From NCBI GenBank assembly GCA_029553375.1, contig JAKPCH010000056.1, positions 1-62,139 on the forward strand: 62,139 nt of DNA, given 5' to 3'. Below the pieces are notes generated by a model, which was given only the letters and a program-made list of their open reading frames with translations, did no database searches and was not told the origin of the DNA. The stretch comes from Deltaproteobacteria bacterium (GTDB lineage: Bacteria > Desulfobacterota > Syntrophia > Syntrophales > UBA8958). Below, one piece after another: positions 52,316-56,017 of this stretch (positions within the stretch are counted from its first letter, which is position 1; each line of letters starts with the position of its first letter). A program made the translations under genes and the position numbers.

Positions 52316-55300
52316 TTACCCTTTGCCGTTGATGATGCCCTTGATCCGCTCGACGATGATCTCCGCCGGTTCGCTCAGGAGGTCCGAGACGGAGAGGTCC
52401 GCCAGGTAGGCGTCGTCCCACGTCAGGTTGTACTCGTTGATCATGTTCCTGATGTCGTTGAGCTTGTAACCGAGGACGGCGATCCTTTCCCCCACGGAGA
52501 GGTCCTCCTGGAAGAGGACGTGGACGAGGAGGAGGTGGCGGACGACGGACGTTTCACCCAAGATGGGCACGACGACGATGGAGGCGTTGTCGTAGCGGCC
52601 CCGGCCGACGTAGACGTGCCGGGTGCTGACGATGGTCCTCTTGGTCCCCACCAGCAGGGGCCTCCTCTCGACCCGCGAGGCCATGTCGCGGGCGATCCCC
52701 CCGCGGTCGGCGATGCGGATCCGGGACGAGTCCGTGGGGTTGCCGTCGCCGTCGAGGTCCTCGATTTCATAGAGGGTGTAGCCCCTCACGGCGGCGACGG
52801 CGGGCTGGATCCTGCCGATGGTCGAGACGTTCCTGCTCGTCAGGCCCTGGGGCGGGAAACCGAGGCGCCCGATGAGATCGAAGATGGGACCGGCGGGGAG
52901 GTGGACCTTCCGGCTCGTCCCCACGGTGACCGTCTTGGCCTGATGGCGGATGGCGTCGATGGGCCTCGTCAGCTCGTCGATGGCCTGGCCGAGGCAGGCG
53001 TCCAGGCGGTCGAGGGGGGAGGTCGCCTCGGAGGCGTGGAAGTCCGCCCAGAAGTCCTCCAGGGGGATCTTGCCGGCGGCGTACTTGAGGAGGAGGACCA
53101 TCTCGGCCACGGTGTTCACGCCGGCGCAGGAGAAACAGCCCTCCCTCCTTTTGGCGTTCAGCTCCTCGGTGAAGGCGCGGATCATCTTCCGGAAACCCCG
53201 ATCCGCCAGGCGCTCGTAGAAGGACGCGACCCTTCCCGGACCGTCGGCGCCCCTGTTCAGGTGGTCCCTAAACTCCCTCAGGAAGAGGGCGTCCTCGTCG
53301 ATGGACCGGGCGGCGTAGTAACCCCACAGGTGCCCCGCCATGGTGTTGAGGATGACGCCGGCGGGCTCCGGGGCGGCGGGCAGGGGGATCACGGCGTCGG
53401 CGACGTGGTGGAAGCGCTCCTCGTCCTCGTCGGCGAAGACGATCACCCCCGCCCGGTGGGCCTTGAAGATGGCCACGTCCTTGACGACGTCCCCCAGGAC
53501 CTTCTCGGGGGTCCCGGCGGCGCAGACGATGATGAGGGGCTCGGCGGACAGGTCGATGTGCTTCTTGTTCTCGATGACGTCCGACGAGATGGTGCGGTAG
53601 CAGAGCTCGCTGAGCTTGATCCGGATCTCGTCGGCCGCCGTCTTGTTGGGGCCGCTGCCGACGACGGCCCAGTACCTCCGGGCCTTGGCCAGGCCCCGGG
53701 CCGCCTCCTCGATGACCCCCCTCCTCTCGAGGAGGGTCTCCATCAGCCGGGGGATCCTCTCGAGGTTGTCGAGCTCCCGCCGGATCTCGCCGTCCGCCAT
53801 GGTCCCCAAGAGGCGGGCCAGGAAGAGACCCAACAGGTGGCCCGCCACGACCTGGGAGTAGAAGGCCTTCGTGGAGGCGACGGACATCTCGATATCCCGG
53901 CCGTCGCTGGTGTAGAAGACGCCGTGGGACCGGGCGGTGATGTCGGACTGGCGGCGGTTGACGATGGAGACGAGCGTCGCCCCCCCCTCCCGGGCCATGG
54001 CGGCGGCCCGGTTGGTGTCCGTCGTCGTCCCCGACTGGGTGATGGGGATGACGAGGGTGTCCGAGAGGTCTTCCCCCGTCATGAAACCGCTCAGCTCCGA
54101 GGCGACTCTGGCCTCGACGATGAGGGACGACCCCCTGAGGTACCGCCTCAGGCCCTCGGCGACGGCCTTCCCCGCCACGGCCGCCGTCCCGTGGCCGATG
54201 ACGACGAGGCGCCGGATGCGCCCCGAGGCGAGGCCCTCCTTGAGGTGGGCGGGGACGACGTCTTCGCCGATGTTGAAGGTTGCCGAACCGCCGTCGACCC
54301 GGCGGTATCTCCCCTGGAGGGTCTTCCTCACGGACCGGGGGGCCTCGAAGATCTCCTTCAGGAAGAAGTGGGGGAAGCCCCGCCGGTCGATGTCCCGCGT
54401 CGTGATCTCGGCGACGCGGACGTCCGCCTCCCCGACGTCGATGGGGGTCCCGTCGTAGTAGCGGCCCCGGAGCGCCCCGACCCCTCCCCCCAGCCGGGCG
54501 TCGAGGACGAAGATCTGGCCCTTGACGGCGGCGTCGGCGGGGGAGGCCTTCTCGCCGTCCATGGGGATGTAGAGGGGCGTCTTCTCCACGAGGCCGTAGA
54601 GCTCCGAGGCGAAGAGGGTCATATCGGGGGCCAGGCCGATGTAGAGGGCCTGGCCGCTGCCGTGGAGGGCGAGGAAGACCCGGCCGGGTTCCAGGTTGCT
54701 CGTCATGGCCACGGCGTGGGAGCCCTCGAAGGAGGAGACGGCACGCCGGAAGGCCTCGGCGAGGTCGCACCCCGTAAGGAGGTGCTCCTCGATGCAGAGG
54801 GGAATGATCTTCGTGTCCGTCGTCACCTCGGGGGTGATGAGTTCCCTCCCCGCCTCGAGGCGGCGGCGGAGGGCGTCGTAGTTGTCGATGTCGCCGTTCA
54901 GGACGACCTCGATGCGCCAGGGGCCCCGGCCGTAGAGGGGGTAATCCTTGATCCCGTCGGGTCCGTCGAGGGTGAAGTTGTTGACGGGATGGCAGTTCTC
55001 CTCCGTGATGGCCCCCATGGAGGCCCAGCGGGTGTGGGCGAAGGCGGTCAGGAAGGTCCGGTCGGCGGCGGCGAGCCTTCTGAGCACCTCATCCTCGCCG
55101 ATGTCCCGCCGCAGCTCGGCCACGTTCCTCCCCAGGGCCCCGATGACGGAGAAGGTCTTGTAGGTGAAGGAGACCGTCATCCCCCCCCCGGGGGACGGGG
55201 CGGCGCTGAGGGAGGCGTTCATGAGCTCCCCCGGGGCCGACCGCCGTTCGTAGTCCTCCCTCGTTTTCCCCTCCCCGGCGGTCAGGGCGGCGTCGAGGAC

Positions 55301-56017
55301 CCCCTCCGCGGGGAGGGTGATGTTGACGTGGAGGCCCGCCGAGTCCCGTCCCCTCACCTCCAGGCGGTCGAGGCAGTTGAGGAGGAGGTTCACGGCCCCG
55401 TAGACGCCCAGGGCGGCGGGGGGGACATCGGCGAGGCTCCCGGCGCCGGCCAGGGCGGCGATCTTCCCGCCGTTCTCCAGGATGTCCTTTTCGAGTCCCC
55501 AGACGGTGTCCCTCAGGACCGTCAGGGCGCCGTTGACGGTCTCCAGGGCGGAGGTGGTAAAAAGGCCCGCCTTTTCGGCGAGGCAGGCCTCCTCCCGAGC
55601 CAGGAGGGCCCGAAGGGATTCCAGGGCCGCCTCGAGACGCCTTTGGCGTCCCGGATCCGTCATCACCTCCCGGAAGACCCCCTCCCCCTTGAGGTCCAGG
55701 AGGGACTTGGCGAGGAGACGGAGGTTCTCCTCCCCGCCCAGGTAGGAGTCCAGGGGGAACTCCCCGGCCAGGTGGCCCCCGAGGTCCCTCTCCGCGGCGT
55801 GGCGGGCCGCCCTTTCCAGGTCGCTGTCGGGCCGGGGATCAGCCCGGTCCCCTCCCGTCCCCAGGGCGACGAGGCCGGCGATGCCGCAGCACAGGACGCA
55901 GGGTCTCAGGGGGAAGAAGACGAGGGACCCCTTGGCGGCCCTTTCGGGGTCCCGGCCCAGGTAAATCCTGAAGGCGGCAAGGAACGTCAGGAGGCGAAGC
56001 ATCTTTTCCCAAAGCAT
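52316..56017 (-). CDS. Giant GlmS-like glutamine:sugar-phosphate amidotransferase with extensions
   Basis: 1233 residues, twice the usual GlmS size. GlmS-type landmarks occur in order: CCGIAG (43-48), [10 protein letters not shown] (219-228), AHTRWASMG (327-335), NGDIDNY (374-380), TDTKII (400-405), [13 protein letters not shown] (548-560), a first SIS domain (QSGTTTDT 661-668, ASTKAF 714-719), and a second SIS domain with KLSELCY. AKTVTVG, matching the GlmS C-terminal AKSVTVE, occurs some 150 residues before the end. Extra material is an N-terminal 43 residues before the Cys, about 170 inserted residues between CGIAG and LEVRG, insertions between the second SIS and AKTVTV, and the C-terminal extension. 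It may make glucosamine 6-phosphate or a related sugar amine. The start ATG 56017 could be 56002. Confidence 0.75.

Follow-up and report, generated by a model that had tools for sequence, protein, structure and literature searches.

How do certain anaerobic bacteria enter the pathway to their cell-wall sugars, and can a GlmS-like protein of twice the ordinary length take the place of the usual enzyme? GlmS is the entry point to the sugars of peptidoglycan and lipopolysaccharide, a drug target, and the textbook example of a bacterial enzyme that comes in a single form. The locus analyzed here lies in a 62,139-nucleotide stretch of DNA (the window) from a deltaproteobacterium of the Syntrophales. 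We read its product as a glucosamine-6-phosphate (GlcN6P) synthase that replaces the ordinary enzyme and would be made as a precursor with a removable leader, and we assign this reading as a whole a probability of about 0.72. The features discussed below are collected in Table 1. A plus-strand frame at the coordinates of the long gene is open but biased, and was set aside as a shadow of the minus-strand gene.

Table 1. Features of the long GlmS-type gene and its surroundings, in positions of the window; residue numbers are those of the translated protein.
Feature	Positions	Strand	Remarks
Hexapeptide protein like GlmU acetyltransferase half	33970..35229	+	Beside glmM
glmM (next pathway step)	35269..36624	+	TIGR01455, 584 bits, over cut-off
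pyrG (CTP synthase)	50674..52287	-	Next gene downstream
Long GlmS-type gene	52316..56017	-	1233 codons + stop; ATG at 56017, stop 52316-52318
C-terminal domain	52319..52903	-	Residues 1039-1233; confident fold, weakly PAS/GAF-like
Internal GlmS C-tail copy	52910..52966	-	Residues 1018-1036; K1028 = E. coli Lys603
Insertion 3, mostly helical	52967..53287	-	~Residues 911-1017, second SIS to C-tail
Two-SIS isomerase part	53303..54391	-	~Residues 543-905, with K801, E804, H820
Class II (Ntn) glutaminase domain, two insertions	54401..55888	-	~Residues 44-539; Pfam GATase_6, fold match
Insertion 2, inside glutaminase domain	55064..55315	-	~Residues 235-318; from profile alignment with ordinary GlmS
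Insertion 1, helical	55394..55867	-	~Residues 51-208, between first strand and RGRDSAG
Cys44 codon, predicted N-terminal nucleophile (= GlmS Cys1)	55886..55888	-	Invariant, 83/83
Leader, candidate propeptide	55889..56017	-	Residues 1-43; conserved in relatives
Fis-type HTH gene	56143..56457	-	Upstream, same strand; neighbor in 25 named loci

The initial annotation of this gene described a double-sized GlmS-like amidotransferase, in which the isomerase Glu (KLSELCY) and a His (KKHIDL) follow each other as in GlmS. This description holds: one open frame on the minus strand encodes 1233 amino acids, the landmarks stand in GlmS order, homologs extend over the full length, and the match to GlmS models reaches an E-value of 2e-73, though under the curated cut-offs. 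The best NCBIfam models are both GlmS, namely PRK00331 with 247.5 bits (cut-off 381) and TIGR01135 with 232.7 bits (cut-off 418), and no model in the NCBIfam profile search of the long protein reaches its cut-off. Pfam detects one class II glutaminase (324-472) and one SIS domain (602-729).

Within the glutaminase domain the ordered motifs are CGIAG (C44), RGRDSAG, HTRWAS (R330), LNGDIDN (N374-G375) and TTDTK (D401), followed in the isomerase part by TQSGTT (Q661, S662, T665), VASTK, KLSELCY (K801, E804) and KKHIDL (H820). For matching we used the residue numbers and roles of E. coli GlmS. On this basis C44, R330, N374, G375 and D401, all invariant among 83 sequences, correspond to Cys1, Arg73, Asn98, Gly99 and Asp123; the equivalents of Gln348, Ser349 and Thr352 are likewise invariant, as are K801, E804 and H820, which correspond to Lys485, Glu488 and His504 of the two SIS domains.

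The fold agrees with these assignments. Deposited structures nearest in sequence are those of E. coli GlmS and human GFAT. To compare a predicted structure with GlmS, as had been proposed at the outset, we modeled the mature chain with AlphaFold2 (pLDDT 88.8, pTM 0.78). VIA-align matches this model to E. coli GlmS 1jxa over 598 of 608 residues (Z 43.7, rmsd 4.6) and to about 616 residues of human GFAT; mature residues 1-496 match 1xff, the glutaminase domain of E. coli GlmS (VIA Z 29.7). Even the GlmS C-tail, DVDQPRNLAKSVTVE, has a counterpart at residues 1018-1036. Here, the pairing of E. coli residue 608 with mature residue 990 places K1028 (mature 985), a lysine in the motif AKTVTV that is invariant among the 83 sequences, on Lys603.

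What, then, accounts for the extra length? The helical insertion that the initial annotation had placed at about residues 49-218 of the glutaminase domain exists (about 51-208), but it is joined by a second one (about 235-318) in the same domain; the insertion suggested after the second SIS domain was found at about 911-1017; and the C-terminal extension is real, though it comprises about 200 residues past the C-tail and not about 150. The earlier list of landmarks proved incomplete, as it missed the C-tail lysine K1028, overlooked because an insertion of about 105 residues precedes the C-tail, as well as the buried nucleophile Cys44 and the leader. A frameshift fusion as the origin of the extra parts is excluded by dozens of homologs that are intact over their full length. 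Insertion 1 is present in all 26 aligned long forms, shorter in an early branch of the family, and appears in the model of the mature chain as a confident helical block. Insertions 1 and 3 have no known relative by sequence, and for insertion 1 none was found in the PDB. The three insertions probably shape the oligomer.

Seen against GlmS and GFAT (TIGR01135, PRK00331), the long form shares domain order, fold and the main catalytic residues, the C-tail lysine among them, and differs in its double length, three insertions, internal C-tail, added C-terminal domain, a nucleophile placed behind a leader, and scores under the curated cut-offs. The NagB-II glucosamine-6-phosphate deaminases (NF046059), which share the SIS fold but have no glutaminase, give a match of only 47.6 bits. 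Since it scores below the GlmS cut-offs and carries an internal nucleophile, the long form is best placed outside the existing models, in a sister subfamily predicted from its sequence to work like GlmS. That no named family with this layout came to mind in the initial annotation agrees with the absence of any NCBIfam model over its cut-off and of any description of such a GlmS-type subfamily in the open-access PMC literature. Throughout the family the sugar-phosphate site departs from GlmS in the same way, with GTA in place of GTS and SGTT in place of SGET. Residue by residue, Ala stands for GlmS Ser303, and either Thr or Ser for Ser347. Because of the exchanges at Ser303 and Ser347 and of SGTT in place of SGET, sugar binding could differ from that of GlmS.

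The least expected departure concerns the N-terminus. In GlmS the catalytic Cys follows directly after the start Met. As translated, the nucleophile of the long form is internal, 43 residues in, and thus lacks the N-terminal position typical of GlmS/GFAT. Yet Cys44 is invariant in all 83 mature sequences and is the only possible nucleophile. A later start is not at hand, as no ATG, GTG or TTG stands at position -1 of Cys44, where the residue varies (Cys, Asn, Phe, Ser). The leader itself is conserved: among 83 non-redundant relatives we find P-8 in 82, G-23 in 77, F-9 in 74 and L-2 in 62, and position -11 is exclusively Ile or Val. Over the last 30 leader codons, 20 independent pairs give a pN/pS of 0.44, a sign of purifying selection which implies that the leader is translated and selected. 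In having such a translated and conserved leader immediately ahead of its nucleophile, the long form agrees with Ntn amidotransferases that carry a PurF-type propeptide.

We know of no GlmS with such a leader. GltB is another class II glutaminase whose Cys comes after a leader. A documented precedent is PurF (GPRAT) of the B. subtilis and plant type, a member of the same superfamily in which the propeptide is removed autocatalytically (PMC7056826). As in long GlmS, the class II glutaminase Cys of PurF comes after a leader, and both families contain versions with and without one; they differ in the acceptor domain, and it is by analogy with PurF that self-cleavage is proposed for long GlmS. All leaderless members begin exactly with MCG, so that the start codon abuts the Cys, and three-frame translations upstream of them contain no leader remnants. 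On a tree of 87 members, the presence of the leader requires three changes, with leaderless sequences in an early branch (L036/L037) and, within the main clade, at L030/L096 and at L017. Because start codons abut the Cys in separate leaderless branches, the leader, where present, most likely comes off, as the propeptide of PurF does. From the sequences we consider it likely that removal precedes the action of the enzyme, and Cys44 is most likely the functional N-terminus; the existence of leaderless lineages implies that the leader is not strictly required for the enzyme to exist.

Could the leader instead stay in place? The protein might still make GlcN6P with Cys44 not free and its glutaminase idle or put to a different use, drawing on ammonia directly, which would suit anaerobes if, as we suppose, they may live at high ammonia. 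Such an arrangement seems unlikely to us, since an idle domain would not preserve Cys44 and the other glutaminase residues, all of them invariant in 83 sequences, and since leaderless members place their start codon exactly before the Cys as ordinary GlmS does.

Does the long form stand in for GlmS or alongside it? It is common to Syntrophales and Desulfobacterales, with full-length identities of 34-58%; in the organism's own family 9 of 11 genomes have a match, the relatives being full-length at 56-57% identity. A scan with one genome per species returned at least 568 coding stretches matching the long form, of which the best 80 carry names such as Syntrophus, Smithella, Syntrophaceae, Desulfosarcina, Desulfobacteraceae, Desulfobacterales and similar ones. 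In a sample of 198 genomes from the phylum, 21 have the main-clade long form and four a distant, shorter branch without a leader. The latter sequences (L036-L039, from genomes G015, G112, G052 and G088) have about 1134-1157 amino acids and retain both the C-tail and the C-terminal domain; this early branch may show the ancestral state.

A search for a normal glmS, advised by the initial annotation, found none over the family cut-off in the organism's own genome (2.4 Mb, rated 100% complete). No NagB or NagB-II-like gene was found there either, and its SIS genes number two, the long glmS and one on contig C55 with a 336-residue frame. Across the sample ordinary GlmS passes its cut-off in 155 of 198 genomes, which divide into one of the 25 with a long form and 154 of the 173 others (Fisher p 4e-18, a value too small because the genomes are related, although the pattern is still strong). 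The sole sampled genome with both forms is G193, whose long form (L034) sits on a long branch of the tree. In this group of sulfate-reducing and syntrophic bacteria, the long form has taken over from ordinary GlmS.

The genes around it point in the same direction. In the window, glmM and a hexapeptide gene form an adjacent pair at a distance of about 16 kb from the long glmS. Among relatives, 14 loci have glmM downstream on the same strand, and a GlmU-acetyltransferase-like hexapeptide gene lies upstream in 17 and downstream in 12. The hexapeptide protein occurs in all 21 main-clade long-form genomes as opposed to 13 of 177 others. Elsewhere in the organism's own genome, GlmU is represented by its uridylyltransferase half alone (contig C93, 10161-10868), and GlmU passes its cut-off in just one of the 21 main-clade genomes (G081). 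Judging by these matches, GlmU appears to be split into the hexapeptide protein beside glmM and a separate uridylyltransferase half. Together, neighborhood and co-occurrence tie the long GlmS to UDP-GlcNAc synthesis.

We thus regard the long form as very probably the GlcN6P synthase of this organism, a judgment derived from sequence comparisons. The main competing idea on the substrate, that it aminates another keto- or phosphosugar while GlcN6P comes by a different route, could draw on the scores under the GlmS cut-offs and the invariant changes to GTA and SGTT in the sugar-phosphate site. It fits poorly, however, with a genome that has no other GlmS, NagB or NagB-II-like gene, with glmM in the window and adjacent in relatives, with the near-exclusive distribution of the two forms across genomes, and with the retained catalytic Lys, Glu and His and C-tail Lys; we rate it slightly lower than a retained leader. 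For these reasons, namely the missing second GlmS, the conserved catalytic residues and the glmM and GlmU-like neighbors, the altered substrate use considered in the initial annotation is not favored. Export of the protein, with the leader serving as a Sec or lipoprotein signal, is very improbable and was rejected. Basic character (median net charge +4) and hydrophobic residues ahead of the Cys would suit such a signal, but none of 91 leaders has a lipobox, the median peak hydropathy over 15 residues is only 1.33, the most conserved positions P-8 and G-23 are not signal-peptide features, and GlmS has its partners and substrates in the cytosol.

For a GlcN6P synthase made as a precursor, we infer the following course: how the leader is lost, how ammonia is passed on, what reaction follows and how it is regulated. 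With the leader of about 43 residues in place, the nucleophile would be blocked, and the leader would have to go for the enzyme to use glutamine. Cleavage of the bond before Cys44 would most likely be a self-cleavage of the kind found in PurF-type amidotransferases. Once freed, Cys44 would hydrolyze glutamine, and the ammonia would move to the two-SIS part, which is predicted to aminate and isomerize fructose 6-phosphate by means of K801, E804, H820 and K1028. The C-terminal PAS/GAF-like domain would probably tune this activity to a metabolite.

In isolation, the 195 residues of the C-terminal domain fold confidently (pLDDT 95.7, pTM 0.89). Among the families on the VIA list, its best match is weak, 7jsr_A residues 174-361 (Z 9.8, rmsd 4.7 over 166 aligned residues); PAS, GAF and Cache sensor domains come next, none of them above Z 6.8. 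Foldseek returned nothing under an E-value of 0.001 (best above 0.006), Pfam nothing consistent for the region, and the PDB no sequence relatives of weight for the C-terminal parts. The structure 7jsr is the large glutamate dehydrogenase L-GDH180 of Mycobacterium smegmatis (PMC8175468), whose residues 174-361 resemble the domain; it is a different enzyme, and no sequence relation to long GlmS was found. We consider a sensor-type domain probable, albeit with low confidence, and put the chances that it regulates the enzyme at even. The suggestion that the extra parts serve regulation is accordingly kept as a possibility based on this weak PAS/GAF-like match (Z 9.8). Somewhat less probable still is the full combination, a GlmS branch made as an inactive precursor, with a self-cleaved leader and PAS/GAF-like control by a metabolite, so that maturation and allostery gate the entry to cell-wall sugars.

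If true, this would mean that anaerobes without ordinary GlmS control that entry by both enzyme maturation and allostery. A long form replacing GlmS across Syntrophales and Desulfobacterales, with what looks like a removable leader and a sensor-like domain of its own, would supply a missing annotation in a central pathway of such anaerobes. As far as we know, no other GlmS-type enzyme has a propeptide, and this one would be the first if its leader is removed. The natural leaderless relatives make the question of the leader directly testable.

Beyond the pathway genes, the surroundings of long glmS are recurrent. No Rfam element, including the glmS ribozyme, was detected at the gathering score over positions 50000-58000. 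In 24 named loci pyrG is the downstream neighbor on the same strand, with a median gap of 60 nt. Upstream, a small protein gene without family match (56470-56991, minus strand) accompanies the Fis-type HTH gene, both with the orientation of long glmS, in about 25 named loci, and moaC often lies farther upstream (22 loci). A recBCD-type set (recD, recB, recC) is located near the locus at 40632-49147 of the window, on the minus strand.
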